A DNA stretch of 64,000 nucleotides, taken from contig NZ_CP071606.1 of assembly GCF_017357225.1 (NCBI RefSeq), positions 372,001 to 436,000 on the forward strand, in the 5' to 3' direction. Position 1 is the stretch's first letter. Every line of letters starts with the position of its first letter. The notes under the pieces are model-generated. The model was not told the origin of the DNA and ran no database searches. It worked only from the letters and a program-made list of their open reading frames with translations. Source of the stretch: Rhizobium binae. GTDB taxonomy: Bacteria > Pseudomonadota > Alphaproteobacteria > Rhizobiales > Rhizobiaceae. This document shows, piece by piece, positions 8,212 to 27,418 of the stretch. The position numbers were made by a program, and so were the translations under genes.

Positions 8212-8225
8212 TTGTCCCAAATCAA
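8212..8225. promoter_or_regulatory. FNR/FixK-like box, one core mismatch, upstream of hemN
   Basis: TTGTCCCAAATCAA matches the anaerobox core TTGA-N6-TCAA with one mismatch (TTGT). It is centred at 8218.5. A class-II promoter would start transcription near 8177, leaving a leader of about 23 bases before the hemN ATG at 8154. The geometry and the target gene support a real site despite the mismatch. Confidence 0.55.
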
Positions 8226-8370
8226 TGATGATGTCTTCCCGGAATCATCCGGATATTTGTCCGCGTGGCAGGACGGTCCACCCCGCTTCGCCGCTCGTCA
8301 TGCTCGCCATTGCACTGTTGTTTGGCGGCCATAGCGCGATGTTCGGCGCCGATCCCCTCGCCCTCTTCGG

Positions 8371-8384
8371 TTGATCGAAGTCAA
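8371..8384. promoter_or_regulatory. FNR/FixK box, perfect core, upstream of DUF1488-like gene
   Basis: TTGATCGAAGTCAA is a perfect TTGA-N6-TCAA site centred at 8377.5, 88 bases before the ATG of the small gene at 8466. It may also contribute to hemN, which is divergent, but it lies far (over 200 bases) from that start. Confidence 0.75.
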
Positions 8385-8465
8385 AGCATCTTTCAGCCGG
8401 ATCCTTAGCCTGCAGGGAAGTCTGGCGGCAGCCGCGGCGACGAGCCCACGACCCGGAGGGATAAA

Positions 8466-8777
8466 ATGCCATATGAAATCGTCACGGCGAGCCTGGACGC
8501 GAAAGATAAGTCGGGTCGTATCGACGTCCGGTTCGGACCTGAGATCAAGACCCTCGTCGTTTCGCGGCGCGCCCTGCTGTCGGTGGCGTCGCCGCCACGG
8601 GCGACGGAACTCCGCCTTCTCCAGCACGTCGACACGTTCTGCCAGATCGCTGCTCGCCGCCTCGCCTCCACCAACGGCGACACGCTTCGCATCACCGCCA
8701 ACGATGTCCGCAGATGGCTCTGCGCCTGGCAAATCTCGGAAAGCCCGGTGCCAATTCAGACGGCTCGCCATCCGTGA
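8466..8777 (+). CDS. Small DUF1488-like protein, low-oxygen associated
   Basis: A 103-residue soluble protein preceded by GGAGGG five bases before the ATG. The middle (VVSRRALLSVASPPRATELRLL) and the end (DGD-like turn, then LRITANDV) align by eye with the small protein at 27040-27300, which has IDRQALLEVAAPPRCDESRL and IHIHAADL. The two are therefore paralogues. The pattern (Ser/Asp-Arg-x-Ala-Leu, later an Ile-Ala helix, then a short beta strand with ..I.A.D) resembles the DUF1488 family; that assignment is tentative. Function unknown. A perfect FNR/FixK box lies 82 bases upstream of the start, so it probably belongs to the low-oxygen regulon with hemN. Confidence 0.75.
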   Translation: MPYEIVTASLDAKDKSGRIDVRFGPEIKTLVVSRRALLSVASPPRATELRLLQHVDTFCQIAARRLASTNGDTLRITANDVRRWLCAWQISESPVPIQTARHP

Positions 8778-8922
8778 TGCCAGATCCGGATGATTTCGGC
8801 CGAATCGGTTGCCGGTCTCCGATGAGGACAACCGACCGCTTGCTGATGACACCGGCTTGACCGGCATGTTAAAGACGGTGCCTGATACGGTCTGTAACGA
8901 GCAACGGCTTGGCGGATGGACG

Positions 8923-9648
8923 ATGACAGCACCTCAACACGACGCGCACCTTCTCGTCGTCGATGACGACCCGCGCATACGCCAGATGTTGACGCGCTAT
9001 TTCGAGGATGAGGGTTATACGGTCTCGTCTGCCGCCGACGGCACCGAGATGCGAGTGCGCCTGCGCCAGCAGAACTTTGACGCCGTCTTGCTCGACCTCG
9101 TTCTTCCGGGCGGCACGGACGGTCTTGATCTTGCCCGGGAAATCCGGGCCCAGTCCGACGTGCCGATCATGATGCTGACCGGCCGCGACGACGTCGTCGA
9201 CCGAATCGTCGGTCTGGAGGTCGGCGCCGACGATTACATCGCCAAGCCCTTCCATCTCCGGGAAGTTCATGCGCGCCTGAAATCGATCCTGCGCCGCCGG
9301 CAACCTCCCGCGCGCGACGCCGAAGCGGCCAGCGAGGAGATCATCGGCTTCGAGGACTGGAAGCTCAATCTCAGCCGCCGCCAGCTGCTCGACCCCGAGG
9401 GCACGGAAATCGAACTGACGACCGGCGAATTCGATATGCTGACGACCTTCGTGCGGCATGCCGGCCGGGTCCTGACCCGCGACGTGCTGATGGACCTGAC
9501 CAGGGGTCGAAACCTCGAAGCCTTCGACCGGACGATCGACGCCCAGATCGTCCGGCTGCGACGCAAGATCGAGACGGACCCGAAGAAGCCGCAATTCATC
9601 AAGGCGGTTCGCGGCGTCGGCTACGTCTTTACCGCAAGACTGGATTGA
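8923..9648 (+). CDS. OmpR/PhoB-family response regulator (orphan)
   Basis: The N-terminal receiver domain has the acidic pocket (Asp14-Asp16 in VVDDDPR), phosphoacceptor Asp58 (LLDLVLP), Thr86 and Lys108 (IAKPF). The C-terminal winged-helix DNA-binding domain ends with the typical VRGVGYVF. From the ATG at 8923 the protein has 241 residues, the usual family length. An in-frame ATG at 8809 would add 38 residues of atypical sequence, so the internal start, preceded by GGATGG, is preferred. No histidine kinase gene adjoins it, so the partner is encoded elsewhere or the regulator is shared. It converges on the ribokinase gene. Confidence 0.92.
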   Translation: MTAPQHDAHLLVVDDDPRIRQMLTRYFEDEGYTVSSAADGTEMRVRLRQQNFDAVLLDLVLPGGTDGLDLAREIRAQSDVPIMMLTGRDDVVDRIVGLEVGADDYIAKPFHLREVHARLKSILRRRQPPARDAEAASEEIIGFEDWKLNLSRRQLLDPEGTEIELTTGEFDMLTTFVRHAGRVLTRDVLMDLTRGRNLEAFDRTIDAQIVRLRRKIETDPKKPQFIKAVRGVGYVFTARLD

Positions 9649-9705: not shown

Positions 9706-10638
9706 TCATAAGGACCGCAGCAGGGCGTCGATCTCGGCGCGTGAAGGCATGGCGGGGGCCGTGCCATGCCGTGTGACCGCAATGGCAGCGGTCGCGCAGC
9801 CGAAACGGACGGCTTCGATCGGCGCCTGTCCTTCGGAAATCGCCGTCGCGAACCCACCGAGAAAGGCGTCGCCGGCGCCGGTTGTGTCAATGACATTTCC
9901 CGCGGCAAATGCGGGGACGAATTCGCTTTGCCCGGCCGCGTGATAATAGTATGCCCCGCGTTTGCCGAGCGTGATGATCACCGCTTGCGCCCCTCGATCG
10001 ACCAGTGTGCGAGCTGCAGCACGTGCCTGATCATCGGTTTCGATCGCATGGCCCACCAATTCCGCTGCTTCGACTTCATTGGGGACAATGAAATCACACA
10101 GGCTGTAGATGCTGTCCGGTATCACCCGTGCCGGCGCGGGGTTGAAGATCGTCGTGGCCCCCGCCCCTTTCGCCATCGACAATCCATGCATGGCAGCCTC
10201 GAGCGGCTGTTCGAGCTGGGTCATGAAAATGGCGGCGCTTTCGATCTCCGCCCGGTTCGCATCGACATCCTCGATACCGATGAGGCCCGCCGCACCCGGC
10301 GCGACGATGATGGCATTGTCGCCGCTCACCTCGTCGACGAAGATGAAGGCGGCGCCGCTGGAAACGCCGTCCATCTTCATCACATTGGCTTTGACGCCCG
10401 CCTCCGCATAGGCTGACAGCGCCATCGCGCCGAACGGGTCGTTGCCGAGCCGTGAAATGAAGGTCACCTTGCCGCCCGCCTTCGCCGCCGCAATTGCCTG
10501 ATTGGATCCCTTGCCCCCCGGCCCGAGCGTGAAACCGGACCCCATCAGCGTCTCGGCAATATGGGGCAGGCGCTTTGCCTTATAGGCCGTGTCGGCAGCA
10601 AAAATGCCCAGGATGACGATCCCGCTTTTCTCGCTCAT
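9706..10638 (-). CDS. rbsK: Ribokinase-like PfkB-family sugar kinase
   Basis: Phosphorylates a sugar, by family ribose or a related pentose, with ATP. The N-terminal PfkB signature (GPGGKGSNQAIAAAKAGG) and the C-terminal signature with the catalytic Asp in DTTGAGDAF are both present, and the length of 310 residues is normal. The start at 10638 has GGAGGAGG upstream, and its ATGA overlaps the stop codon of the mutarotase gene, so the two are translationally coupled. It is the last gene of a six-gene minus-strand sugar operon. The importer in this operon is MalFGK-like rather than RbsABC-like, so the substrate may not be ribose. Confidence 0.9.
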   Translation of the reverse strand: MSEKSGIVILGIFAADTAYKAKRLPHIAETLMGSGFTLGPGGKGSNQAIAAAKAGGKVTFISRLGNDPFGAMALSAYAEAGVKANVMKMDGVSSGAAFIFVDEVSGDNAIIVAPGAAGLIGIEDVDANRAEIESAAIFMTQLEQPLEAAMHGLSMAKGAGATTIFNPAPARVIPDSIYSLCDFIVPNEVEAAELVGHAIETDDQARAAARTLVDRGAQAVIITLGKRGAYYYHAAGQSEFVPAFAAGNVIDTTGAGDAFLGGFATAISEGQAPIEAVRFGCATAAIAVTRHGTAPAMPSRAEIDALLRSL

Positions 10639-11096
10639 CGGATCGCCTCCTCCGCTGGAATGACGCCCTTGGTCAGAAGGAAACATCCATAGAACCGCAG
10701 TTCCCCGGTTGCGATCACGCAATAAGCCTTCTTGGCAATGTCGTAGAAGGCCATGCGTTCGACGGGATACATCGGCGATGGCTTGCCCTCGGCGCGGTCG
10801 ACGATCGCTTGGACTTCCTGCTGAATCGGCGGAATTTCATCCGGCTTGCCGATCACTTCCATGCGCCCCACCGACGGCTGGATGGGGGTGTCGAGCGGCA
10901 AGACCGACAGGACCGCGTCGATTGCCTGCGGTGCGGGAATGTTCTCCATGGTCAGCAATTTTCCGAGACGCGTCTGGCGGGCGATCGAATCCGACGGAAA
11001 ATTCATGTCGGAGATGACGAGATAATCGCCATGTCCCATGTTGCAAAGTGCTTGCAGAATGTCGCCGTTGAGTTCGGCCCTGATTCCCTTGAGCAT
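10635..11096 (-). CDS. RbsD/FucU-family sugar mutarotase
   Basis: Members of this family interconvert sugar anomers (ribose pyranase RbsD, fucose mutarotase FucU). The sequence has the family start LKGIRAELNGDILQALCNMGHGD with the active-site His, and the FucU-type end with AFYDIAKKAYCVIATGELRFYG. The length (153 residues) and end are closer to FucU than to RbsD. The ATG at 11096 follows GGAAAG; an in-frame ATG at 11108 is the main alternative. It overlaps the ribokinase start by four bases. Together they would convert an imported sugar to the right anomer and phosphorylate it. Confidence 0.9.
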   Translation of the reverse strand: MLKGIRAELNGDILQALCNMGHGDYLVISDMNFPSDSIARQTRLGKLLTMENIPAPQAIDAVLSVLPLDTPIQPSVGRMEVIGKPDEIPPIQQEVQAIVDRAEGKPSPMYPVERMAFYDIAKKAYCVIATGELRFYGCFLLTKGVIPAEEAIR

Positions 11097-11140
11097 TGTT
11101 CTTTCCATCCTGTTCCCGTGGCCGGAGCGCCGGCCATGCT

Positions 11141-12169
11141 TCACTTGATATGTCCCGTCATGTCCGGCTTGGGTTGCGGGCATGGGCCGCTGGAACCGCG
11201 CACGATCAGCGATCCGTCGACCATTTCGTCTGCCGTGCCCGGTGGCTCCTCCAGCAGAAGGCTGACCGCGCGGCGTGCCAGCATTTCGGCCGGCTGCCGT
11301 ATGGTCGTCAGCCGCGGCACGACGAGATTGGCGAGCGAAATGTCATCGAAACCTGTGACGGATAGTTTTCGCGGCACGTCGATCTTGAGGTCGCGGGCCG
11401 CGCGTAATGCGCCGATAGCCTGCTGGTCGCTGGCGGCCGCGATCGCCGTTGGCCGGTCCTGCGCCGGGCGCGACAGCAGGCTACGGGCAATTCTTTCGCC
11501 GGACTCGTAGTCGAATCTGCCGTAAGCGATTTCCAGGTCAACGGCCTCGCCAGTCTTGGCGAATCCGTCCAGGCGACTGACGAAGGCCTCCTTGCGTATG
11601 CGCCCGGCTTCGGTGTCGGTCGGCCCGGCAATATAGGCGATGCGCCGGTGCCCCAGCCCATAGAGATGATCGGCAATCAGCGTGGCCGCCTGCGCATGGT
11701 TGGTCGACACCAGGGGAAAGGCGCCGAAACGCCGGTCCAGCGATATGACCGGCACCGAGGCCGGCAGAGCAAGCCCCGAACCGTCGCTCGAAGCCACGAC
11801 GATGATGCCGCGCACAGATCGGTCGAGAAAGGCCGAAACATGGCTCTGCTCCGCCTCGCTGTCGTTGTGCGAGCTTGCCAGCATCAGGCTATGACCGCAT
11901 TCGAGCGCCGCGCGCTCGATGCTTGCCGCAAGCTGCGCAAAAAAAGGATTGGTGATGTCGGGAACGACGAGACCGATGACGTCGGTTCTGCTGGTGCGGA
12001 GCGCCCTTGCAGTGACGTTCGGCCGGTAACCAAGCGCCGAAATGGCGTCGTTGACCTTTTCGCGCAGCACCGGTTTGACCGCGGCTTCGCCCGACAACAC
12101 GCGCGAAACGGTGCCCACGGATACGCCCGCATGTACGGCAACGTCCTTGACTGTCGGCATCTTCGCCAT
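11141..12169 (-). CDS. LacI-family transcriptional regulator of the sugar operon
   Basis: The N-terminal LacI helix-turn-helix and hinge are clear (TVKDVAVHAGVSVGTVSRVLSG, then GYRPNVTARALR), followed by a periplasmic-binding-protein-like effector domain. Starts at 12178, 12169 and 12160 are all in frame; none has a strong ribosome-binding site, so 12169 is a compromise. The gene lies inside the operon, eight to seventeen bases after the inner-membrane permease gene. Its likely operators are the two perfect palindromes ATGAAACGTTTCAT at 16035 and 16123, which fit the LacI-type pattern with a central CG. It is probably a repressor released by the transported sugar or its phosphate. Confidence 0.92.
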   Translation of the reverse strand: MAKMPTVKDVAVHAGVSVGTVSRVLSGEAAVKPVLREKVNDAISALGYRPNVTARALRTSRTDVIGLVVPDITNPFFAQLAASIERAALECGHSLMLASSHNDSEAEQSHVSAFLDRSVRGIIVVASSDGSGLALPASVPVISLDRRFGAFPLVSTNHAQAATLIADHLYGLGHRRIAYIAGPTDTEAGRIRKEAFVSRLDGFAKTGEAVDLEIAYGRFDYESGERIARSLLSRPAQDRPTAIAAASDQQAIGALRAARDLKIDVPRKLSVTGFDDISLANLVVPRLTTIRQPAEMLARRAVSLLLEEPPGTADEMVDGSLIVRGSSGPCPQPKPDMTGHIK

Positions 12170-12185
12170 TTCCAACATCCCGCAG

Positions 12186-13097
12186 CTATTTTACGGCGCC
12201 CGCGGTCATCCCGGCGATGATATGCTTTTCCAGCACGACCCCGACGACGACCAGCGGCAGAATGCCGGCGGTGGATAGCGCAGCCATCGACCACCAGTTG
12301 ATGCCCTGGCTGCCTGTCTGGCTGGCGATCATCACCGGCAGCGTGTTGGTGTTGGTGGAAGTCAGCAGCGCGGCGAAGAAATATTCGTTCCAGCACAGGA
12401 TCAGTGCCAAAAGGAAGGCGGCAACCATGCCCGGCAGAACGAGCGGCACGATGATGCGGGTAAACGCTCCCCAGATCGACAGGCCGTCGACCAGCGCGGC
12501 CTCCTCGAGCTCGACCGGTATGGTTGCGAACTGATCGCGCATTATCCAGACGACGATCGGCAGAACCATCAGCGTATACACGGCGATCATGCCGGCATAG
12601 GTGTCGAGCAGCGCCAGTTCCTTGTAGAGAACCAGGAATGGCAGGGCGAGGACGACTGGCGGCATGATGAGCTGAGACAGGAAGAAAAAGGAGATGTCGG
12701 AATTGCGCATATGGCCGAATCTATAGGAGAAGCGGCTAAGGCCATAGGCTGCCAGCGATCCGAGCACGACGGCCAGGGCGGATGCGGCGGTGGAGATGAT
12801 GACGCTGTTCCAGAGCCTGCGCATGAATTCGTCACGCACTGTCGAAATCTGCGAGATCGTATCGGGAGAGAGGCCGAGCGAGCGCCAGCCGAGCCAGTTC
12901 GGCGCGAAATTGAACCACGGGATGAGGTTGCCGCGCATGACATCCGCGGCTGTCTTGAACGAGGTCGACACCGTCCAGAACAGCGGGAAGATACAGACAC
13001 ACGCCCAGATGACGAGCAGCCCGTAGACGGCCAAACGCATGGCCCACCAGCGAATGCGTTGGCCCCGTCCGTATTTTTCGAAATCGATGCGAACCAT
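12186..13097 (-). CDS. Sugar ABC transporter permease, MalG type
   Basis: A 303-residue inner-membrane protein with about six hydrophobic segments. The EAA loop, which contacts the ATPase, reads as VELEEAALVDGLSIWGAFTRIIVPLVLPG. An N-terminal segment (LAVYGLLVIWACVCIFPLFWTV) is typical of the MalG/UgpE half. Its ATG shares one base with the TGA stop of the preceding permease (TGATG), so translation is coupled. With the neighbouring MalF-type permease it forms the channel of a carbohydrate importer. Confidence 0.93.
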   Translation of the reverse strand: MVRIDFEKYGRGQRIRWWAMRLAVYGLLVIWACVCIFPLFWTVSTSFKTAADVMRGNLIPWFNFAPNWLGWRSLGLSPDTISQISTVRDEFMRRLWNSVIISTAASALAVVLGSLAAYGLSRFSYRFGHMRNSDISFFFLSQLIMPPVVLALPFLVLYKELALLDTYAGMIAVYTLMVLPIVVWIMRDQFATIPVELEEAALVDGLSIWGAFTRIIVPLVLPGMVAAFLLALILCWNEYFFAALLTSTNTNTLPVMIASQTGSQGINWWSMAALSTAGILPLVVVGVVLEKHIIAGMTAGAVK

Positions 13098-14215
13098 CAG
13101 AGCCTTCCTGTCATCCGCTTCACGATGCGGTCGGAGATCTTCATCAGCCCGGTCATGCCGACGACGATGATCACCAGATAGACGAGCGCGAGCAGGGTTC
13201 CGTAACCGACATTCGAGCGATCACGATATTCGCGGTAGATGAAACTGGTGACGGAATCCGTCGCTCCTCCGGGACCTCCCGATGTCACCGTGATGATGAT
13301 GTCGGCGAGCTTGAGCTTGAAGATGATGCGGATCATCACCGCCGTGACCGATACCGGAAGCATCAGCGGAAAAATCACCTGCCAGAAGCGTTGCCACTTG
13401 GTAGCGCCGTCGACTTCGGCCGCCTCCAGCACCTCCCTCGACAAGGCCTGCAGCCCGGCCAGCAGCATGATCATCATGAAGGGAATGAAGGTCCAGGCAT
13501 CCATGATCATGATCGAAAGCCGCGCCGTCAGCGGCTCGCCGAAAAAGGAAGGGTTTTCCCAGCCGAGCCAGCGAGCCATGCGCGCGATCGGGCCGAAGCG
13601 GGTCTCCAGCATCGATTTGCCGACCATCCAACTCACCGCCACCGGCGACAACATCAAGGGCATGAGGAAAGTGACGCGCCAGAACTTTCGGGCAATGATT
13701 TCCTGGTTGAGGAGCAGCGCCAGCCCGAAGGCAATTGCATATTCTACAGCGATCGCAAGGCAATAAAGGATCATGTTGAACAAGGCGTTGGCATAGAACG
13801 GATCGGAGATCATCCGGCGCACATTGTCGAGCCCGTTGAACCGCCGCCCGGTGGAAGAGGCGAGGTTCCAGTCCGAGAAGCCGATCCAGAACGCAAAGAG
13901 CAGCGGGAAGACCACCATCGATACGACGAAAAGCGCCGCCGGCAGAACAAAGAGCGCCTTCTTGCCGGCCTCGCCGTAGATGACGACGCGGGTGACGCAG
14001 AGGACCACGGCCCAGATGAAATAGGCGTAGAGAACCGGCCGCCAGTTGGCAAAGCCCCAATCGCTCCAGCCAAATTCGTGGACAGCCTGCAATACAAAGG
14101 ATGCCATGAACCATATGGCGCTCAGCCACAGGGCCACGCGGCCCCAGAAACGGCGGCTTGCAGAAATGGAGCCGGTTTCGACCGTGTGGAGCAGGTCGCC
14201 TTCGACTATCGACAT
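13097..14215 (-). CDS. Sugar ABC transporter permease, MalF type
   Basis: A 372-residue membrane protein with an extra hydrophobic N-terminal region and about eight predicted membrane segments. The EAA motif is in LSREVLEAAEVDGATKWQRFWQVIFPLMLPV. The ATG at 14215 follows GAGGAATATCA. It lies 72 bases downstream of the binding-protein stop; that gap holds a strong hairpin. It pairs with the MalG-type permease encoded next. Confidence 0.93.
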   Translation of the reverse strand: MSIVEGDLLHTVETGSISASRRFWGRVALWLSAIWFMASFVLQAVHEFGWSDWGFANWRPVLYAYFIWAVVLCVTRVVIYGEAGKKALFVLPAALFVVSMVVFPLLFAFWIGFSDWNLASSTGRRFNGLDNVRRMISDPFYANALFNMILYCLAIAVEYAIAFGLALLLNQEIIARKFWRVTFLMPLMLSPVAVSWMVGKSMLETRFGPIARMARWLGWENPSFFGEPLTARLSIMIMDAWTFIPFMMIMLLAGLQALSREVLEAAEVDGATKWQRFWQVIFPLMLPVSVTAVMIRIIFKLKLADIIITVTSGGPGGATDSVTSFIYREYRDRSNVGYGTLLALVYLVIIVVGMTGLMKISDRIVKRMTGRL

Positions 14216-14241
14216 TGATATTCCTCGCCCGGACGGGATGG

Positions 14242-14272
14242 GCGCTGGCGGAGCCTTTCAGTCCGCCAGCGC
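14242..14272 (-). other. Strong intercistronic stem-loop after binding-protein gene
   Basis: GCGCTGGCGGA (14242-14252) and TCCGCCAGCGC (14262-14272) form a perfect 11-bp stem with a nine-base loop. It lies between the stop of the binding-protein gene and the start of the first permease. There is no T-tract, so it is more likely an RNA-stabilising or attenuating element that raises the amount of binding protein relative to permeases. Confidence 0.7.
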
Positions 14273-14287
14273 GTTTATGTCAATCGA

Positions 14288-15928
14288 TCAGAGCCCGAGG
14301 CTCGCCCGATAGAGCTTCAGCTGGCTGTCGCGGCCGATCTGATCGGTGATCTTTTCCCAGGCGGCGGCAATCGCATCCGCGGTTTCCTGTGCCGACTTGT
14401 ATTGTCCGGCAAAGCCCTTCGCCAATTCGTCCTCCGCAACGGAGTAGTATTGGAAGATGCCGGGGATGCGCGGCTCGATCGCAGCGTTCGGATGGTTGTA
14501 GCTGTCGGCGTTCGAGCCCAGATAGTCCTCGATGTAGGCGCGGTCGTAACCTGCCTTTTCCCATTCGTCGTAGTTGAAGTGCGACTGACGATAGGGCTGG
14601 AAGCCGGACGGATAGGCCGACGTCCAAAGGGACAGATCCTTGCCGCCGAGATGGGCGGCAGCAGACCAGGCCGCCTTGCGCTTCTTCTCGTCGCTGGAGA
14701 CCCGCTTGGTGACGTAGATGCCCCAGCCGAGATAGGCCATGTTGGGCGCTTCGTTATACTTGTCCTCCCATTGCCCGGACTTGCGGTTGTAGACGCGGTT
14801 GGAGCCGCGGTTGATGCCGAAACCGACCACGTCGCCGACGACCGAGGTGTCCGAGGTGCGCGCGCTGGAGCCGACGTCGCCCCACCACATCAGCATGGCC
14901 CCGGTGCCTGCCAGGAACTGCGAAAAGGCCGTTGTGTTCGGATCCGCATTGATCTGATCGGCCGGATATGCCTTTGCTGCGATCAGATCCAGGACGTCCT
15001 GGATCGCCTGGACCCAGGCAGGGTTGTTGACCAACGGCTTCATGTTTTCTGGGTCGAACAGCCACGCCGGATCACCGGGATATTTGGCATAGGCCGTCGC
15101 GCGGTTCTCGATGAAGTAGAAGCCGAAGCCACCCCAGCCCTTGAGCGGGTCGAGATAGCCGTAGGCCGGCTGGCCGGTCAGCGGATCGGTCTTGCCGATC
15201 AGCGCCTTGGACGCTGCGTTGACGTCCTGCCAGGTCTTCGGCGGCTCGGCCATGCCGCTGATCGAGCCTTCGCCGAAGTAGTCCTTGCGATAGGCGAAGG
15301 TATGGCAATCGCCATCGATCGTGACGCGATAGGTCTTGCCGTCCCAGGTGCCGACCGGCGGTTTCAGGTAGTTCACCAGGTCGTCGGCTTCGATCTGCTT
15401 TGCAGCCCAGTCGGGCATCTCGTCGAGAAGCCCGCGTCCGGCGGTGTCGCCTTCGAAGGGTGCGCCCATTTCCAATATGTCGTAGTCAACCGTGCCGGTT
15501 GCGATCGACTGCTGAAGGCGGGCGTTGTAATCGGCCTGGGCAAGGTCGATCCAGTTGATCTTGGCGCCGGTATAGGCTTCCCAAGGCTTCAGGAAGCCGC
15601 GGAACAGGAAGTTGTGCAGATTCTGGTTGTTGAGCCCCATGAAGGTCAGCTCGACACCTGTGAATTCGCCCTGCTTGACATTGGCCTTGGTCGGGCCGAG
15701 GCAGAGATCGCCGACTTTCTGCCAGTCCGCGTCCGTGGGCGAACCCTTGCCGACGCCCGGGATCTGCAGGAGCTGGGCGCGCAGATCATCGGCGGCGAAT
15801 GCGCTGCCGGCAAATCCGCCCATCGCGCCGGACAGGCCGAGCAGAGCCGCCGCACTTGCCGTTCCGCGCAAAATGTCGCGGCGGCTTGCCTGACGGCGCA
15901 TCAATGCATCGTATATTTCGACTTTCAT
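14288..15928 (-). CDS. Sugar-binding protein of ABC transporter, family 1, Tat-exported
   Basis: A 546-residue extracytoplasmic solute-binding protein. The N-terminus carries a twin-arginine motif (Ser15-Arg16-Arg17-Asp-Ile-Leu), a hydrophobic stretch and a likely cleavage site after GSAFA, so it is probably exported folded. The body has family-1 features such as FLKPWEAYTGAKINW and a Trp-rich C-terminal lobe. GGAGGAGGAAGAC precedes the ATG at 15928 (a GTG lies 15 bases upstream in frame but is less well placed). It is the first gene of the minus-strand operon. The length is above the usual 400-450 residues, as in a subfamily common in rhizobia. Substrate unknown. Confidence 0.93.
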   Translation of the reverse strand: MKVEIYDALMRRQASRRDILRGTASAAALLGLSGAMGGFAGSAFAADDLRAQLLQIPGVGKGSPTDADWQKVGDLCLGPTKANVKQGEFTGVELTFMGLNNQNLHNFLFRGFLKPWEAYTGAKINWIDLAQADYNARLQQSIATGTVDYDILEMGAPFEGDTAGRGLLDEMPDWAAKQIEADDLVNYLKPPVGTWDGKTYRVTIDGDCHTFAYRKDYFGEGSISGMAEPPKTWQDVNAASKALIGKTDPLTGQPAYGYLDPLKGWGGFGFYFIENRATAYAKYPGDPAWLFDPENMKPLVNNPAWVQAIQDVLDLIAAKAYPADQINADPNTTAFSQFLAGTGAMLMWWGDVGSSARTSDTSVVGDVVGFGINRGSNRVYNRKSGQWEDKYNEAPNMAYLGWGIYVTKRVSSDEKKRKAAWSAAAHLGGKDLSLWTSAYPSGFQPYRQSHFNYDEWEKAGYDRAYIEDYLGSNADSYNHPNAAIEPRIPGIFQYYSVAEDELAKGFAGQYKSAQETADAIAAAWEKITDQIGRDSQLKLYRASLGL

Positions 15929-16034
15929 GTCTTCCTCCTCCACGTTTGGTGCGCTGCCGCCAGCCAGTGTTCCGGATCGGCTCCGGCCCGAATTTGGGAC
16001 TGGTCTCGTACAGAACTATCTGGTAAACAAGAAA

Positions 16035-16048: not shown

Positions 16049-16122
16049 AATTCTTGTTCGAAACCGCTCCTCCCGGTCTCATCCGTGAGCATTAGACGGG
16101 AAGCGGGAAAAGTCAATAAAAA

Positions 16123-19500: not shown

Positions 19501-20556
19501 ATGCCGGGCAAAATGATGAAGGCGGCGGTGGTGCGCGAATTCGGCAAACCGCTCGCAATCGAGTGCGTAGCAGTGCCTGGCCAGGCCCAGGCGAGATACT
19601 GGTGAAGGTCGTCGCCTGCGGCGTATGCCATACCGATCTGCATGCCGCAGAGGGCGACTGGCCGGTCAAGCCGACGCCTCCGTTCATCCCCGGGCACGAG
19701 GCGGCCGGAATTGTCGCAGCCCTCGGTCCCGGCGTCACCGAATTCAACGAAGGCGATGCTGTCGGCGTCGCCTGGCTGCACGACGCCTGCCTGCGCTGCG
19801 AGTATTGCGAAACCGGCTGGGAAACGCTTTGCGAGCACCAGCACAATACCGGCTACAGCTGCAACGGCCGAATATGTCATCGCCTCGGCCGCCTTCGCCG
19901 CCCGCCTGCCTGCCGGTGTCGATTTCGCCGAGATTGCGCCGATCCTCTGCGCCGGCGTGACGACTTACAAGGGACTGAAGGAAACCGAGGCGCGGCCCGG
20001 TGAGTGGGTTGCAATTTCAGGCGTCGGCGGCCTCGGCCATGTCGCGATCCAATATGCCAAGGCCATGGGTCTCAAGGTGATCGCCCTTGATATCGCCGCC
20101 GCCAAGCTCGATCTCGCCCGCCATGTCGGCGCCGATCTCGCGCTGAACGCGCTTTCCGAGGATACTGTGGAGACGGTGCTGAAGGCGACGAGCGGGGGCG
20201 CGCATGGCGTCCTCGTCACCGCCGTCTCGCCTCCGGCCTTCTCCCAGGCTATCGGCATGGTGCGTCGCAAGGGCACCGTCAGCCTCGTCGGCCTGCCGCC
20301 GGGCAATTTTCCAACACCGATCTTCGATGTCGTACTGAAGCGCATCACCGTCCGCGGTTCGATCGTCGGAACGCGCCGCGACCTCGACGAGGCGCTTGCC
20401 TTCGCCGCGGAAGGCCGAATCCGGGCCGCGATCGCCAAGGCGCCGCTCGACGATGTCAACGATATTTTCACCGGCCTTAAGGCGGGGACGATCGAGGGTC
20501 GCATGGTGTTCGATCTCGCAGGACAGGCGGGCGCATCCGCAGCGGCGGAGCAATAG
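19501..20556 (+). pseudogene. adhP: AdhP-type zinc alcohol dehydrogenase, disrupted by two compensating indels
   Basis: The product would be a propanol-preferring-type alcohol dehydrogenase of about 340 residues. The start ([18 protein letters not shown]) is in one frame up to about 19588. The zinc-binding middle ([40 protein letters not shown]) is in another frame to about 19868. The NAD-binding and C-terminal part (GVGGLGHVAIQYAKAMGLKV to AGTIEGRMVFDL) returns to the first frame. At the first junction, TGGCCAGGCCCAGG looks like a five-base duplication. At the second, AACGGCCGAATATG lacks about eight bases that should encode part of Gly-Phe-Ala. The frame after the first indel meets TGA at 19603. 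Unless both are sequencing errors the gene is dead. Confidence 0.85.
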
Positions 20557-20803: not shown

Positions 20804-21526
20804 ATGCTCGTTCAAGCCATCATGACCTCGCCGGCGATCACCATCACCGCATCCGCTTCCGTGGCTGAAGCCGCCAGGCTGATGCTCGACAACAGGATCA
20901 GCGGCCTGCCGGTCGTCGATGCCAACGGCGCGCTTGTCGGCATCGTCAGCGAAGGGGATTTTCTGCGTCGCAGCGAACTGAACACCGAGCGCAAACGGTC
21001 TTGGTTGCTCGAATGGCTGACAAGCTCGGGAAAGATCGCCGCAGAATATGTGCGCACGCACGGGCGGCGGGTGGAGGAGGTCATGACCTCGACCGTCAGC
21101 GCGATTGCCCCGACCGCCTCCATTTCCGATGCGGTCAGGCTGATGGAGCGCCGGGACATCAAGCGCCTGCCGGTGGTGGAGGGTGGCAAGCTCGTCGGCA
21201 TCGTCGCCCGCTCCGACCTGCTGCGCGCGCTTTCGCAGGCGCTGCCGGCTGCTTCCGTTTCCGCCGGAGATGCGCAGATCCAGGCGGCGATCGAGGCAGA
21301 GCTGGCAAAGCAGAGCTGGAGCCGCAACGGCTTCATCCACTGTCGCGTGACCGACGGGATTGCCGAGCTCACCGGAACCATCTTCGACGAACGGGAGCGT
21401 CTCGCCGCAAAAGTCGCCGTCGAGAATGTTGCAGGTGTCACGTCGGTCAAGGATCAGCTCGTCTGGGTCGATCCTTATTACGGCATCGCGCTGCCGCCGC
21501 CGGATGCCGAAACCAGGCAGGCCTGA
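20804..21526 (+). CDS. CBS-domain pair with C-terminal BON domain
   Basis: The 240-residue protein has two CBS motifs (about residues 5-60 and 90-150), each with the ..V.EA..LM....I..LPVVD..G.LVGIVS pattern, and a BON domain (about 165-230). CBS pairs bind adenine nucleotides and act as energy sensors; BON domains often bind membranes or other surfaces. The AGGAG before the ATG at 20804 decides the start; an in-frame ATG at 20783 lacks one. It is likely cotranscribed with the SPW protein 17 bases downstream. The upstream FNR/FixK box suggests induction by low oxygen. Confidence 0.92.
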   Translation: MLVQAIMTSPAITITASASVAEAARLMLDNRISGLPVVDANGALVGIVSEGDFLRRSELNTERKRSWLLEWLTSSGKIAAEYVRTHGRRVEEVMTSTVSAIAPTASISDAVRLMERRDIKRLPVVEGGKLVGIVARSDLLRALSQALPAASVSAGDAQIQAAIEAELAKQSWSRNGFIHCRVTDGIAELTGTIFDERERLAAKVAVENVAGVTSVKDQLVWVDPYYGIALPPPDAETRQA

Positions 21527-21543: not shown

Positions 21544-21927
21544 ATGGAACGTCCCGCTTTCAATGATCGCATGGCACAACGGCTCGCGGCCTTGATGTTT
21601 GTCATGTCGGCGGCCTTCCCGTTGCTCCTTTCCGATATGGAAAAGCTTGCCCTCAGTTCGTCAAATCTCGCGCTCTGCGGGCTTTTGCTGCGCACCGGCC
21701 GCGGCCGGGATGTCGCAGCGCGGCGGCGGGAGCAGGTGACGATTGCCACATGGCTCGCCGTTTCGCCATGGGTGCTGGGCTTCGACCATGTCGGGGTAAG
21801 CCTCTGGCCGACGGTCGCCTGCGCCGTACTCCTCTTTCTTCCCGCCGCCTGGCTGGCGAGCCGGCAGGAGACGCCGCAAAAAGCGGAAGCCTGCACTCGC
21901 CGATCGCAATGGCGCCGGCCCTTCTGA
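21544..21927 (+). CDS. SPW-repeat small membrane protein
   Basis: A 127-residue protein preceded by AAGGAGATAAATT. It has two hydrophobic segments near the N-terminus and two more near the C-terminus, the latter opening with the SPW signature (WLAVSPWVLGF), typical of the SPW-repeat family of small inner-membrane proteins. Function unknown. It follows the CBS-BON gene closely, so both probably belong to one low-oxygen-induced transcript. Confidence 0.8.
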   Translation: MERPAFNDRMAQRLAALMFVMSAAFPLLLSDMEKLALSSSNLALCGLLLRTGRGRDVAARRREQVTIATWLAVSPWVLGFDHVGVSLWPTVACAVLLFLPAAWLASRQETPQKAEACTRRSQWRRPF

Positions 21928-22007
21928 CACGCGAGGCGAGCGGTCGCAATGCGGGCCGCGACCTGATCAAACTTCCCGCACAGACAAGGACGGGGCAAGA
22001 CATTAAA

Positions 22008-22964
22008 ATGCCGAAAACTTTGCTCGGTTTCGTGTTCCTCATCGGCCGCTATCACCAGATGGCGATTGCAGCCCTGTCCATCGTTCTCTTCCTCGCCGGC
22101 ACCGCACCGCTCGAAATCCAGAGGCGCATTGTCAATGCCGCCACCGAGGGCGCCCCCTATCGGGCGATCCTGATCCTCGTCCTTGCCTATCTCGGCCTGG
22201 TGCTGCTGGAGGGATTGACCAAGTTGATGCTGAACCTCTATCGCGGCTGGATCGGTGAGGTCGCGGTCCGCTGGCTGCGCAAGTCGGCGCTTGCCGCCTC
22301 GAGAGAGTCGGAGGAGACTCCCTTCGACGCGCTTGCCGAAGGCGTTCAGCTGTCGATCCTCATCGCCGAGGCCGAACCGGTCGGCGGCTTCGTCGGCACC
22401 AGCATCTCCGAGCCGTTGCTGCAGGCCGGCATCCTTGTCGCCGTCGGCGGCTACATGATCTTTCTGCAGCCTCTGATGGCGCTTGCCGTCGCTGTCGTCT
22501 TCCTGCCGCAGATCGGCTTCGTGCCGCTGATGCAATCGGCAATCAATCGTCGGGTCGAGACCAAGATCACCGTCACACGCCATGTCAGCCAGAGCATGAT
22601 CCAGCATGTCGCCAGCAACGACGCGTTCGATGCTCAGGGAACTCGGGTGCAGCGGCTGTTCTCGCTGAATATGGGTATCTACAAAATCAAGTTCACGATG
22701 AACTTCATGATGAACTTGATGACGCAGCTCGGCTACGCCGGCATCTTCGCACTCGGCGGCTATTATGTCGTCACCGGCAAAACCGAGATCGGTACCGTTG
22801 TTGTCTTTATATCCGGCCTCACCAAGATCCGGGACCCGTGGGGAGAACTCGTCGACTGGTATCGCGATCTAAGGGTCACGCAGGTCAAATATGCCATGAT
22901 CCGCGATGCGAGCGCTGCCGCGGAGGTGCAGGATGAAATCCTCGTTCCGGAGAGGATGGCCTGA
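22008..22964 (+). CDS. ABC-transporter transmembrane domain protein without ATPase domain
   Basis: The 318-residue protein resembles the six-helix exporter-type ABC membrane domain: hydrophobic helices around AIAALSIVLFLAG, ILVLAYLGLVLLEG, GILVAVGGYMIF and a late YAGIFALGGYYVV, ending VVVFISGLTKIRDPWGELVDWYRDLRVTQVKY. That end corresponds to the linker that normally leads into the nucleotide-binding domain, but the gene stops there, and no Walker motif or partner ATPase is nearby. The ATG at 22008 has only a weak GGGGCAAG upstream. It lies 80 bases after the SPW gene on the same strand. Confidence 0.82.
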   Translation: MPKTLLGFVFLIGRYHQMAIAALSIVLFLAGTAPLEIQRRIVNAATEGAPYRAILILVLAYLGLVLLEGLTKLMLNLYRGWIGEVAVRWLRKSALAASRESEETPFDALAEGVQLSILIAEAEPVGGFVGTSISEPLLQAGILVAVGGYMIFLQPLMALAVAVVFLPQIGFVPLMQSAINRRVETKITVTRHVSQSMIQHVASNDAFDAQGTRVQRLFSLNMGIYKIKFTMNFMMNLMTQLGYAGIFALGGYYVVTGKTEIGTVVVFISGLTKIRDPWGELVDWYRDLRVTQVKYAMIRDASAAAEVQDEILVPERMA

Positions 22965-23053: not shown

Positions 23054-23878
23054 TCAGTGCGACAGCAGGACGGGCAGGGTGATGCTGGTCAGCACGGCCC
23101 GAGTGGCACCGCCGAGCACGAATTCACGCAGGCGCGAATGGCCGAAGCCGCCCATGACAAGAAGATCGGCCCGCATCTCGGAGGCCTTGCCCTGCAATAC
23201 CTCTCCGACCGGCTCGCCGTGTGCGCGCACCCGTGTCGCCTCGGCCATCACGCCGCTCTTGAGCATATTCTCAATGAGATAATCGCCCGTCTCGTATGTC
23301 ACGGGCTTCTCGTCGATGACGGAGAGCAGGAAGACCTTGGACGCCCGTTCCAGGAAGACCGAGGCGTCGTGGGCGGCCCGAGCGGCGGCCCGGCTGCCGT
23401 CCCAGGCGATGGCGATGTTATCCATCCGGCCGCCGAAAGGCGCGGGGGGATAAAGGATGAGCGGTCGACCGGATCCGAACAGCACTGCCTCGACGATCGG
23501 ACGCGAGAGTTCCGCCAGTTCCAGAAGCGCGAGATCGTAGGCGCGCGAGGCTTCCGCCAGCGCTTCGACGACGAAAGGCTCTTCAACCTTGATCGCGCGC
23601 GTACGCAGATCGACGGCAGCCGCCCTTGCCTCGTCCACCGCCTTCTGCGTCAGCACCGAAGCGCGCTTGCGGCTCAGCGCGCCCGCCTGCCGAGCCATCT
23701 GCGCCGCATCGATAATCAGCGAAGACAGTGCATTGGAGACATCGGGAACGGTAATCTCAACCGCGCAGACTGTAAGCGTCGCCTGCATGTGACGCGCAAG
23801 GGCAACGGCGTTGGCGATCATGAACTCCGACGTCGCATCCGGATAGGTGAGGAGCGGAAGAAAGATATGCCGTTTCAT
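23054..23878 (-). CDS. Universal stress protein, tandem UspA domains
   Basis: A 274-residue protein with two Usp folds. The second ends in the conserved loop GGFGHSRLREFVLGGATRAVL, close to the equivalent loop of the Usp at 18476, so the two are paralogues. The start MKRHIFLPLLTYPDA at 23878 has GCGGAG upstream. It is divergent from the DksA-like gene, and the gap holds two FNR/FixK-core sites in tandem, centred 70 and 94 bases from this start. Role in anoxic survival is inferred from family and promoter. Confidence 0.93.
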   Translation of the reverse strand: MKRHIFLPLLTYPDATSEFMIANAVALARHMQATLTVCAVEITVPDVSNALSSLIIDAAQMARQAGALSRKRASVLTQKAVDEARAAAVDLRTRAIKVEEPFVVEALAEASRAYDLALLELAELSRPIVEAVLFGSGRPLILYPPAPFGGRMDNIAIAWDGSRAAARAAHDASVFLERASKVFLLSVIDEKPVTYETGDYLIENMLKSGVMAEATRVRAHGEPVGEVLQGKASEMRADLLVMGGFGHSRLREFVLGGATRAVLTSITLPVLLSH

Positions 23879-23955: not shown

Positions 23956-23965
23956 ACCGGGCACC

Positions 23966-24092: not shown

Positions 24093-24431
24093 ATGAAGCA
24101 CGAAGATCTGGAAAACAAACTGAAGACCGCGAAAGCGGACCTGCAACGCCGGCTGTCGGCGATCGATGCCGATCTCGGCGCCGCACTGGATCCGGATAGC
24201 GAAGATCGCGTTACCCAGCTCGAGAACGATCAGGTGCTGACGGAAATGCGCAAGGAAGCACGTGAGCAAATCCTATCGATCGACGCGGCTCTCGAGCGCC
24301 TGAACCATGGAACGTTTGGCCGCTGCGTCAGGTGTCTTGCTCCTATCGAAACCGCCCGACTGGATGTTATTCCCCACACGCCCTACTGCGCGACCTGCGC
24401 CCGCCTAGCGGCTGAGAAGCGCTCCTCGTAA
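24093..24431 (+). CDS. DksA/TraR-family zinc-finger protein
   Basis: A 112-residue protein with an N-terminal coiled-coil region (about residues 1-75) and a C4 zinc finger, CVRC at the start and CATC near the end. DksA-type proteins insert the coiled coil into the RNA polymerase secondary channel and modulate the stringent response. Canonical DksA is longer (about 140-150 residues), so this is a short paralogue. The ATG at 24093 follows GGAAAGCGATCG. It is expressed divergently from the Usp gene with FNR/FixK boxes between them, hinting at a low-oxygen-specific polymerase modulator. Confidence 0.88.
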   Translation: MKHEDLENKLKTAKADLQRRLSAIDADLGAALDPDSEDRVTQLENDQVLTEMRKEAREQILSIDAALERLNHGTFGRCVRCLAPIETARLDVIPHTPYCATCARLAAEKRSS

Positions 24432-24600: not shown

Positions 24601-25056
24601 ATGTCATTGGGTCTACGGGAATTAACGCTGGCTGAATGCTATGCCATGTTGGAAGAAGCACGATTTGGGCATCTGGCTTGCTGCAAAGATGGCCAACCAT
24701 ATGTCGTGCCGATCTATTTCTCTTACGAAAAAGGCGTCGCTTACTGTTTTTCGATGCCCGGCCGCAAACTGGAGTGGATGCGGGAAAACGACAGTGTTTG
24801 CCTGCAGGTAGATCGGCGGGTGGGCAGAGGCTGGACGAGCGTCATCGTTGAAGGAAGGTTTGAGGAATTTCCTGACACCGCACTCTGGCGAAGCGAACGC
24901 CTGCATGCCTGGGAAATGTTGCAGAAGCACTCTGACTGGTGGGAAGTCGGTTCGCTCAAGCCGAAAGAGGTTCCTGTGCTTGCCGAATCTCCGCACATCT
25001 TCTTTGGAGTCCTTGTCCGGAAATTGTCGGGCCGCGCCGCTTTTGCCATCGACTAG
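24601..25056 (+). CDS. Pyridoxamine 5'-phosphate oxidase-like flavin-binding protein
   Basis: A 151-residue protein of the small split-barrel flavin family. The start ELTLAECYAMLEEARFGHLACCKDGQPYVVPIYFSYEKG is typical of the Pyridox_ox_2 group, as is the later GRKLEWMRENDSVCLQVD. Members bind FMN, F420 or haem; the substrate cannot be predicted. AAAAGGAGCGTCTC precedes the ATG. A near-consensus FNR/FixK box lies 57 bases upstream, which places it in the low-oxygen island. Confidence 0.87.
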   Translation: MSLGLRELTLAECYAMLEEARFGHLACCKDGQPYVVPIYFSYEKGVAYCFSMPGRKLEWMRENDSVCLQVDRRVGRGWTSVIVEGRFEEFPDTALWRSERLHAWEMLQKHSDWWEVGSLKPKEVPVLAESPHIFFGVLVRKLSGRAAFAID

Positions 25057-25220: not shown

Positions 25221-25547
25221 ATGCTTTCGACAGAGCGAGACTTGAAGCGGGGCGGTGAGCGCTTCCCCATTCCTTCGCAAGGGGAAGTCGAAGGCAGGCT
25301 GCTGATGTTCGAGGTGGTGGCCGTCACCTGCCTGCAGGAGCTTCTGGCAAAAACGGACCCGCATCTGGTTTTCAGGCTTCGCCGAAAGCTCCTGCGCAAT
25401 CTGAAGGAGAGGTGCGTGCCGCTGAAGCTATGTGCAGATGACGAAAAGGCCGCAAAGGAGTTCGCGCTCCAGCTGTTGAGTGCAGCTCTGGAAGAGGCAG
25501 AAGATGAGGGACGAGCCGGTCGCCATAATCTGCGTAAGAGCAGCTAG
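25221..25547 (+). CDS. Conserved-looking hypothetical protein, 108 residues
   Basis: The ATG follows GGGAGGCATAG. The product is charged and probably all-helical, with a central segment LLMFEVVAVTCLQELLAKTDP followed by a basic stretch (FRLRRKLLRNLKERC) and an acidic end (EEAEDEGRAGRHNL). No signal peptide, membrane segment or metal motif. I do not recognise a family. The upstream FNR/FixK box makes it a candidate new member of the oxygen-limitation regulon. Confidence 0.68.
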   Translation: MLSTERDLKRGGERFPIPSQGEVEGRLLMFEVVAVTCLQELLAKTDPHLVFRLRRKLLRNLKERCVPLKLCADDEKAAKEFALQLLSAALEEAEDEGRAGRHNLRKSS

Positions 25548-25697
25548 CAGCAACTGCTTCATCTCCTTCTCGCATTACGATCAAGGGCTGCCTGTGGGTG
25601 GGTTCGAGGATGGGCAGATTGAAATAGACGGTTATTGCGGCATGTCCGATAGAAGTTTCCCCAGAGGCCAGACGACTGGCAATATCTGGATCCGCGC

Positions 25698-26960
25698 ATG
25701 ATGACGTCAATCATGATGACCGACGCATTCCAACGTCTCGGCCTCGCGCTGGCGATCGGCATTCTCGTCGGTATCGAGCGCGGGTGGCGCGAACGCGAGG
25801 CCGCACCGGGCAAGAGGGTGGCCGGGATCCGCACCTATGGGCTCTCAAGCTTCCTCGGCGGTTTTTGCGGTTTGCTGCACCCCATCACGGGGCCGATCCT
25901 GCCGACCATCATCTTTGTATTTTTCTGCATCACGATCCTTGGCTTCAGCGGCGTGCAGGCACTGCGCGAGCGGGACTACAGCGCAACGGGCGCCATCGCC
26001 GCGATAACGGTTTTTGCCCTAGGCTTCGGCGCCGTCGTCGCGGACATGACGATGACCGCGGCGAGTGCAGTCGCCATCACAGCGCTCCTGGCGGCGCGGG
26101 AGCCGCTGCACGGATTTCTGCGCAAGCTGACCTGGCTCGAGCTCAGAGCCGCCCTGATCTTGCTGACGATGACGGTCGTCATTCTTCCAATTCTTCCCAA
26201 TGAGGCCATCGATCCGTGGCATATGATCAATCCCTTCGAGCTGTGGATGCTGACCGTATTCGTGGCAGCGGTTTCATTTGCGGGCTATGTGATGATCAGG
26301 CTCAGCGACGCCAGAGCCGGCCTGCTGCTGACGGGTGCTTGCGGCGGTATCGTCTCCTCGACGGCCCTGACGCTTTCCTTTGCCCGTCAATCGAAGCAGA
26401 CGCCTGCCCTCTCGCCGCTGCTTGCGGCCGGAGCGATGCTGGCGGGGGCCGTATCCCTAAGCCGGGTGCTTTTGATCTGCGGCGTCATCGCGCCGGCGGT
26501 GCTGATCGAGCTTGCGGCATTGCTCGGACCGGCTGCCGCTGTGCTCGCCATCGGCGGCGGCCTCGCCGCCTTCTCGCCGCGCTCCGATCACGGCCCCGAC
26601 TATTCACCGAAAAATCCTTTGGAGGTGATGGTCGTATTGCGTTTTGCTCTGCTGCTTGCCATCGTGACCATCGTGACGCGGGCGACGCTGGCATATTTCG
26701 GAACGCAATCGCTGTTTGCCGTTGCCTTCATCACCGGCCTCGGCGATCTAGACGCGATAACCCTGTCGATTGCGAAGCTGCCGTCGTCAAACGTGCAAGC
26801 GGATGCGGCCGCCCATGCCATCGCGGTTGCCGCCTTCGCCAATCTTCTTGCGAAGACAGGTCTTGCTGCCAGCGCGGGAAGCCTGGTCTATGTGGTTCGG
26901 CTCGGCGTCGCGAGCTGCATTGCGACGCTCGCCGGCGCCGCCGGCTTGCTGCTAGCTTAG
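25698..26960 (+). CDS. MgtC/SapB-DUF4010 membrane protein
   Basis: The 420-residue integral membrane protein starts with an MgtC/SapB-like segment (LGLALAIGILVGIERGWRER, GIRTYGLSSFLGGFCGLL), followed by more than eight further hydrophobic helices typical of the DUF4010 C-terminal part, including GACGGIVSSTALTLSFAR. Proteins of this fusion type are widespread but not biochemically defined; MgtC relatives affect magnesium starvation survival and membrane ATP synthase. The ATG codons at 25698 and 25716 are both possible; neither has a strong ribosome-binding site. It converges on the DUF1488-like gene at 27040. Confidence 0.88.
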   Translation: MMTSIMMTDAFQRLGLALAIGILVGIERGWREREAAPGKRVAGIRTYGLSSFLGGFCGLLHPITGPILPTIIFVFFCITILGFSGVQALRERDYSATGAIAAITVFALGFGAVVADMTMTAASAVAITALLAAREPLHGFLRKLTWLELRAALILLTMTVVILPILPNEAIDPWHMINPFELWMLTVFVAAVSFAGYVMIRLSDARAGLLLTGACGGIVSSTALTLSFARQSKQTPALSPLLAAGAMLAGAVSLSRVLLICGVIAPAVLIELAALLGPAAAVLAIGGGLAAFSPRSDHGPDYSPKNPLEVMVVLRFALLLAIVTIVTRATLAYFGTQSLFAVAFITGLGDLDAITLSIAKLPSSNVQADAAAHAIAVAAFANLLAKTGLAASAGSLVYVVRLGVASCIATLAGAAGLLLA

Positions 26961-27039
26961 ACCTCGTGCGCGCCCGGTTGGACGCGCCGTGGAGCTGGGC
27001 CCATCAGACAGCTGAGGCGGATCGCGCCGCCTCCCCTCG

Positions 27040-27300
27040 TCATACGCCAAGGTCGGCTGCATGAATGTGGATGCGCCCATCCCGCTCGACATCCCCGCGA
27101 TCGTACTTCGCGCAGGCAATCCGGCTGAAGAGGTCGATGTTTTCCTGAAGCCGGCTTTCGTCGCAACGCGGTGGCGCGGCAACCTCAAGAAGGGCTTGCC
27201 TGTCGATAACGACCATTTGGTTCGTACCGTCCGCATCCATGACCAGCAGCGCTTCCTCGCCGGACGACTTCATCATTCCACTGATCAGCTTCAAAGACAT
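27040..27300 (-). CDS. Small DUF1488-like protein, paralogue of the 8466 gene
   Basis: An 86-residue protein whose middle (VVIDRQALLEVAAPPRCDESRL) and end (DGRIHIHAADL) match the protein at 8466-8777. GGAG lies upstream of the ATG at 27300; longer in-frame starts add sequence without a ribosome-binding site. The DUF1488 assignment is tentative and the function unknown. A perfect FNR/FixK box is centred 111 bases upstream. Two paralogues, each preceded by such a box, suggests a real role in low-oxygen physiology. Confidence 0.76.
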   Translation of the reverse strand: MSLKLISGMMKSSGEEALLVMDADGTNQMVVIDRQALLEVAAPPRCDESRLQENIDLFSRIACAKYDRGDVERDGRIHIHAADLGV

Positions 27301-27404
27301 CGCTTTTCTCCGCATCGTTTGATTTCGTAAGACCTGCCGCGGGAAGCTGCCGGGCTCCTGGCGCAGTTTGTCGGACATTCTGTCGTGATGCCGGGCAACC
27401 TGCC

Positions 27405-27418
27405 TTGACGCATATCAA
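27405..27418. promoter_or_regulatory. FNR/FixK box, perfect core, upstream of DUF1488-like gene
   Basis: TTGACGCATATCAA is centred 111 bases upstream of the minus-strand ATG at 27300. The other flanking gene (27451-28035) ends, rather than starts, beside it. Confidence 0.78.

Follow-up and report, generated by a model that had tools for sequence, protein, structure and literature searches.

The window analysed here, a stretch of 64,000 nucleotides of Rhizobium binae (contig NZ_CP071606.1, positions 372,001 to 436,000), contains a series of intergenic palindromes that are most probably operators of the regulators FixK and FnrN, a reading to which we give a probability of about 0.88. Such operators are called anaeroboxes in R. 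johnstonii strain 3841 (PMC7888657). Judging from the sequence evidence, the sites would belong to a genuine FixK/FnrN regulon island, accompanied by its regulators and larger than first noted: the initial annotation of this DNA had described a cluster of 19 kb, which turned out to be the right-hand portion of an island of 48 kb that is cut by the window edge and reaches 20 kb upstream of it. Four lines of evidence fit and support a FixK/FnrN regulon, and with it the low-oxygen FNR/FixK interpretation proposed initially: the enrichment and clustering of the motif in the genome, the conservation of the footprint, a class II spacing to promoter-like hexamers, and the presence in the island of a hybrid FixL (hFixL)-FxkR-FixK cassette together with fixN and fixG.

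A pattern scan of the window returned exactly eight perfect cores (TTGAN6TCAA), at 8371, 19373, 20666, 23942, 23966, 25095, 27405 and 31439, and these are the eight that the initial annotation had listed. Seven are intergenic, under the gene starts used in the analysis, while the core at 31439 is found within a solute-binding-protein gene (30704-31510) and is probably there by chance. Shuffled sequences contain 0.43 perfect cores on average (100 shuffles, maximum 2, none reaching 8), in agreement with the previous estimate of less than one chance site per 64 kb. Two one-mismatch cores, which had also been reported, are present at 8212 (TTGTCCCAAATCAA) and 24530 (TTGCTCTTTATCAA). The distance between the box centre and the assigned start codon is 64.5-131.5 bases (121.5 bases from the 19373 box to the adhP ATG at 19501), as anticipated by the initial figure of about 65-130 bases for most sites. 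The core at 23942 is perfect, although it lies outside the strict form of the box, TTGAYN4RTCAA.

The whole genome (7,055,288 bases in 8 contigs) contains 145 perfect cores, compared with 34 occurrences of the reversed pattern, and the strict form is found 69 times, compared with 5 for its reversed control. On C3, the 498-kb contig that holds the window (window position 27418 corresponds to C3:399418), 13 of the 15 strict sites are inside C3:351574-399418 (about 48 kb), a clustering that none of 20,000 random placements reproduced. The density of the motif, for which the initial annotation had asked whether intergenic DNA elsewhere would be equally rich, is uneven across the genome: a single other place is comparable, C1:3671035-3710660, with 17 strict boxes in 40 kb, and outside these two islands the maximum is 3 strict sites per 48 kb (0.47 expected). 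Sites outnumber the control in all 41 genomes examined, this one counted, which has the highest count. Fifty-six of the 69 strict sites are outside coding sequence (C3 baseline 0.27), a lenient figure, since the home-made gene caller of this census, based on open reading frames and GC content, scored sites up to 150 bases inside a reading frame as non-coding. The spacer of the 30 island sites mildly favours C (position 6) and G (position 9), at 0.43 for either base, a preference weaker than in the consensus of PMC4999443.

The initial annotation had stated that no fixK or fnrN gene is in the window; this is true, as no Crp/Fnr helix-turn-helix match was found within C3:372001-436000, but it is misleading, because fixK (C3:363109-363840) lies upstream, its end 8.2 kb from the window edge, and because the window does encode FxkR, overlooked in the initial annotation, which activates fixK in relatives (PMC7888657). 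Upstream of the window, C3 carries the genes for 5-aminolevulinate synthase (hemA), a second CBS-BON protein and a Crp/Fnr protein, together with fixG, fixN, fixK and the hybrid FixL, and a copper P-type ATPase occupies the place of fixI. Sequences for ccoN, ccoG and 5-aminolevulinate synthase score above the cut-off, and the names of the other members of fixGHIS and fixNOQP come from the annotation of the corresponding regions in R. phaseoli R630 and R. etli CFN42. FixK9a of strain 3841 and the C3 FixK share 78% identity, and a K-box (GTTACA-N4-GTTACA) is located at C3:363008, about 100 bases before fixK. The hybrid FixL (C3:363840-365792) contains PAS, kinase and receiver domains, and the window FxkR (8923-9648) has 89% identity with RL_RS26015 of plasmid pRL9 of strain 3841, at the FxkR9 position, and 97% with the R630 protein; the names FixK9a, FixK9b, FxkR9, K-box and anaerobox are taken from PMC7888657 and were matched to pRL9 by position. 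All the members of the hFixL-FxkR-FixK cascade are present, that is, the hybrid FixL, FxkR and a fixK behind a K-box. Two FnrN-type genes, called by their N-terminal Cys cluster, are found on C1 and on C5, which also carries nifH; a pair of boxes separated by 31 bases belongs to the C1 copy, an arrangement resembling the dual-box fnrN promoter described in PMC7888657. Eleven HTH_Crp_2 matches of at least 37 bits are found in the genome, among 30 matches listed; three of these proteins were inspected for the Cys cluster, and the C1 FixK was read separately.

Conservation of the footprint was measured on nine stretches from seven strains, counting only relatives aligned across a site. Over 19 site-relative alignments, 150 of 152 core positions (98.7%) are identical, as are 90 of 114 spacer positions and 942 of 1347 positions (70%) of the 40-base flanks; the 7/8 cores of 23942 in Pop5 and R. 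lentis are outside this set. As for the promoters, the 56 site-direction pairs examined (intergenic strict sites of the whole genome) include five with a TANNNT hexamer at offset 21 and five with one at offset 22, against at most one at each of 62 other offsets. Within the window, four of the seven perfect intergenic sites (8371, 20666, 23966 and 25095) are followed by such a -10-like hexamer at a distance of 21-22 bases, as is the one-mismatch site 24530, always in the rightward direction. With this spacing the box has its near edge at about -34, in agreement with the listing for the fixNOQP and fixGHIS boxes in PMC7888657, assuming that measurement there is to the near edge; the class II arrangement supports assignment of the boxes to a FixK/FnrN regulon.

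Several observations weigh against this interpretation. The hexamer is absent at offsets 21-22 in 46 of the 56 site-direction pairs, and in the window no TANNNT was found at class II distance for 19373, 23942, 27405 and 8212. The relatives used for the footprint are mutually dependent, R630 and CFN42 being close kin, and the site at 31439 is conserved too, so that conservation by itself does not prove function, although in that case coding constraint can explain it. In CFN42 and Pop5 the 19373 box retains seven of its eight core bases, and adhP, which it may serve, has a disrupted frame. In the window scan no perfect site was found in the sugar-transport genes at 9706-17335, and 22 of 36 non-strict sites examined, from a total of 76, are outside coding sequence, a high share that may derive in part from AT-rich spacers or from weaker real sites. 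Finally, FixK and FnrN are indistinguishable by motif.

The similarity among the motifs also means that the sites could be read mainly by another Crp/Fnr protein, for example a nitric oxide-responsive NnrR/DNR with a near-identical box. The motifs of FNR, FixK and DNR closely resemble one another and a UspA gene is among the predicted DNR targets as well (PMC2908626), the interval from hemN to fxkR in R630 holds nirK and one more Crp/Fnr gene, and only three of the eleven HTH_Crp_2 proteins of this genome were read out. However, no such nirK block lies here in the interval from hemN, which ends at 8154, to position 8466, and a profile search of the genome gave no nirK, the denitrification target looked for, above the cut-off (best 52.8 bits, cut-off 296.3; norB and nitrate reductase were not searched for), while the fix operons and hemA, known targets of FixK/FnrN, are in the same island as the sites; a regulon of the NnrR/DNR type is accordingly considered improbable.

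No more credible is the possibility that only the canonical sites, those of the fix operons, hemA and hemN, are working, and that the sites of the stress block are drifting remnants of a once-linked regulon, as the base lost by 19373 in two relatives, the disruption of adhP and the three perfect window sites without hexamer might indicate. Indeed, the window sites are better conserved in the core than in the flanks, 20666, 23966, 25095 and 24530 carry the hexamer at class II spacing, and in a related cluster of R. leguminosarum UPM791 all 11 boxes are intergenic, the cluster that matches it by gene order being induced in bacteroids (PMC6421345). That the sites arose by chance or from base composition, or as copies of a single repeat element, is the least credible account, to the point of being negligible: the first two were ruled out by the shuffles, by the 69 strict sites against 5 controls and by the 20,000 placements, and a repeat by the flanks of the seven intergenic sites, which are mutually dissimilar, the most similar two, 23942 and 23966 with their overlapping flanks, being alike at 39 of 100 positions.

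Assignment of the boxes to FixK and FnrN leads to the genes that each may serve (Table 1). Because the R630 perfect box (L065:42100) stays with a small gene (42181) and fxkR, hemN being 7.7 kb away, 8371 was assigned to the 103-amino acid gene upstream of fxkR and hemN was set aside as its target; hemN, which the initial annotation had included among the targets, probably uses 8212 instead. A small gene, annotated as hypothetical and likened by position, holds the place of the 103-amino acid gene in R630, strain 3841, Pop5 and R. bangladeshense, and in all four a perfect box starts 81-107 bases before it; DNA alignment across 8371 was obtained for three of these strains, not for strain 3841, where fixK9b is interposed between the small gene and fxkR. 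The alcohol dehydrogenase, also proposed initially, is a possible target of 19373, but its frame is disrupted: against the intact AdhP of R630, the region 19501-20556 gave three tblastn pieces in two frames, and adhP is either a pseudogene or affected by an assembly error. The genes at 21544-22964 are possibly cotranscribed with the CBS-BON gene, and the membrane protein gene at 25698-26960 is a possible distal target.

The analysis shows the sites with their statistics and conservation, the spacing to the promoters, and which regulators are present; for binding, oxygen response, division of labour between FixK and FnrN, feedback and physiological role we infer the following scheme. When oxygen falls, the hybrid FixL would activate FxkR, as in the published cascade, and FxkR would bind the K-box at C3:363008 and switch on fixK. 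FixK, and at lower oxygen FnrN, would then bind the anaeroboxes and activate the class II promoters of hemA, fixGHIS, fixNOQP and hemN; the same binding would activate the stress block of the window, which includes the universal stress proteins (Usp), the CBS-BON, DksA-like and PNPOx-like proteins and the small proteins, and which would protect proteins, redox balance and energy state in cells that are microaerobic or inside nodules. The gene for FixK is a target of FxkR, and FixK in turn would act at 8371. A positive loop could therefore operate: from 8371, across the 145-base gap at 8777-8923, FixK may raise its own activator by feeding forward onto fxkR. A list of motifs would in this way become the hypothesis of a low-oxygen regulon with its regulators in place, and several small proteins of unassigned family are named as likely low-oxygen genes.

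Table 1. Candidate anaeroboxes and neighbouring genes in the window (window positions; aligned relatives are those covering the site)
Feature	Position	Strand	Details
hemN, oxygen-independent coproporphyrinogen III oxidase	6802-8154	-	TIGR00538, 431 bits (cut-off 325); ATG 8154
One-mismatch anaerobox TTGATTTGGGACAA (hemN strand)	8212-8225	-	Probable hemN site; core letters same in 5/5 aligned relatives; no TANNNT at offsets 17-27
Anaerobox TTGATCGAAGTCAA	8371-8384	+	TAGCCT 21 bases downstream; perfect in 3/3 aligned relatives; probably for 103-amino acid gene
103-amino acid protein	8466-8777	+	Family unassigned; no Pfam match
fxkR, OmpR-type response regulator (FxkR)	8923-9648	+	Receiver and Trans_reg_C domains
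Universal stress protein	18476-19312	-	PF00582
Anaerobox TTGATCAACGTCAA	19373-19386	none assigned	Between usp and adhP; perfect in R630, 7/8 core in CFN42 and Pop5; no TANNNT in either direction
adhP, alcohol dehydrogenase	19501-20556	+	Frame disrupted at two places
Anaerobox TTGACGTTGATCAA	20666-20679	+	TAGCTT 22 bases downstream; perfect in 3/3 aligned relatives
CBS-BON protein	20804-21526	+	PF00571 (two), PF04972
SPW-repeat protein and ABC-transporter membrane protein	21544-22964	+	PF03779, PF00664
Universal stress protein	23054-23878	-	PF00582
Anaerobox TTGACATGCCTCAA	23942-23955	-	Probably for usp 23054-23878; perfect in 3/5 aligned relatives, 7/8 core in 2; no TANNNT
Anaerobox TTGACGCGGATCAA	23966-23979	+	TAGCGT 21 bases downstream; for DksA-like gene; perfect in 3/3 aligned relatives
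DksA/TraR-like zinc-finger protein	24093-24431	+	PF21173, PF01258; start set by alignment
One-mismatch anaerobox TTGCTCTTTATCAA	24530-24543	+	TACGGT 21 bases downstream; core letters same in 3/3 aligned relatives
PNPOx-like flavin protein	24601-25056	+	PF12900, PF01243
Anaerobox TTGACCTTTGTCAA	25095-25108	+	TAGGCT 22 bases downstream; perfect in 2/2 aligned relatives
108-amino acid protein	25221-25547	+	Family unassigned; no Pfam match
MgtC/DUF4010 membrane protein	25698-26960	+	PF02308, PF13194
86-amino acid protein	27040-27300	-	No Pfam match; gene at same place in R630
Anaerobox TTGACGCATATCAA	27405-27418	-	Probably for 86-amino acid gene; perfect in 3/3 aligned relatives; no TANNNT
Perfect core	31439-31452	none assigned	Inside coding sequence; conserved in 3/3 aligned relatives

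Other features of the region can be described briefly. The block at 9706-17335, consisting of a sugar ABC transporter, a regulator and a ribokinase, separates the fxkR part from the usp/adhP part, and a similar block is annotated in R630, in CFN42 p42c and in R. bangladeshense. On the right the island adjoins a CHASE4-GGDEF-EAL protein (28207-30597), with no perfect box before its gene, and on the left window positions 1-4089 are the end of a very large open reading frame (C3:370534-376089, 1851 amino acids) that begins upstream of the window; in CFN42 p42c, the gene for a large ATPase of the AAA family precedes a response regulator. All the 90 plasmid records with a match to the protein at 25221-25547 are from Rhizobium, and the match is beside an MBL-fold gene in 4 of the 25 records listed, all of R. 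leguminosarum.

Islands of related composition are found elsewhere in this genome and in other rhizobia. In pRL9 of strain 3841 a block with hemN, fixK9b, fxkR, adhP and the CBS gene, which is unannotated there, runs into usp, groEL, BON, rbbA and another usp, with 15 strict boxes in 44 kb; the second part of this block has relatives in the chromosomal island of R. binae (Cpn60 90%, RbbA 54%, APH-AAA protein 55%). This island, C1:3671035-3710660, encodes a FixK that is 70% identical to FixK9b and lies behind its own K-box, and the twenty proteins scanned there include Hsp20, three Usp, acetate kinase, P-type ATPases, a CBS-BON protein and the ATPase inhibitor zeta. R. lentis p1 has both kinds of block within about 50 kb, with 15 strict boxes in 48 kb (locus L125), while CFN42 has the two halves on separate plasmids, the one with the fix genes on p42f and the one with the stress genes on p42c. 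A 49-kb stretch of plasmid pRlvB of UPM791 contains 11 perfect boxes, all at 270574-303094 (locus L126), and its proteins are 56% (DksA), 64% (PNPOx) and 29% (first Usp) identical to those of the window; a helix-turn-helix protein, a PAS sensor kinase and a response regulator are annotated in this locus, beside an imperfect K-box (GTTACG-N4-GTTACA), and from annotation and place this trio is read as a FixK-FixL-FxkR-type cassette. On balance, and with considerable reserve, we favour the view that rhizobia carry recurrent, modular FixK/FnrN stress-survival islands, packed with anaeroboxes, which would split and move between plasmids and chromosome, often with their own K-box-fixK cassette, and in which the feed-forward of FixK onto fxkR by way of 8371 may also take part; members would be the island of the window, C1:3671035-3710660, and those of pRL9, R. 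lentis p1 and UPM791 pRlvB.

Among the closest known systems is the hFixL-FxkR-FixK/FnrN regulon of strain 3841 pRL9 and of R. etli CFN42 (PMC7888657), with which the R. binae island shares FixK (78%), FxkR (89%), the K-box, the fix operons, hemN, adhP, the CBS block and the box itself. Unlike strain 3841, no fixK9b-type gene is beside fxkR here, a FixK with 70% identity to FixK9b being in the separate chromosomal island, and unlike the strain 3841/CFN42 system, fxkR is parted from usp/adhP by the sugar-transport block. For Alphaproteobacteria, PMC2908626 lists among the predicted FixK targets Hsp20, a CBS-domain protein, Zn-alcohol dehydrogenase, HlyD, ABC proteins and phosphoketolase, and among those of FNR UspA, hemN, the fix/cco operons, a heavy-metal P-ATPase and a DnaK suppressor protein. 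In general terms, therefore, many of the genes in the window and chromosomal islands had been predicted earlier; the parts of that work consulted treat gene families across genomes and describe no single packed island.

Cluster RHLb6065-6098, on plasmid B of R. leguminosarum, has just over 30 genes, of which 24 show induction above 5-fold in bacteroids of bean and pea; what the clustering signifies was reported as "not known" (PMC6421345). Eight landmarks of this cluster (Usp, P-ATPase, DksA, P-ATPase, Usp, Hsp20, EF-hand and response regulator) all match UPM791 pRlvB 270574-303094 by the ordinal position of the locus tags, and by names and order the two would be the same cluster; shared FixK/FnrN boxes would then offer a simple cause for the published clustering of stress genes. 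The pRlvB stretch differs from the island of the window in having no fixNOQP annotated. A small heat-shock protein gene of UPM791 that depends on FnrN and has an anaerobox has been described (PMC11784457). In the literature searched, with subscription journals outside its scope, no description of the present island as a FixK/FnrN regulon island was found; its regulation and much of its gene content appear to be of a published kind, and the island form, the splitting among replicons and the probable link to the bacteroid-induced cluster appear little described. A resemblance in content only can be drawn with the lxa locus of Burkholderia cenocepacia, which comprises 50 genes, six of them for Usp, and is induced at low oxygen (PMC9733578): both are contiguous low-oxygen blocks, proved or predicted, that are rich in universal stress proteins.

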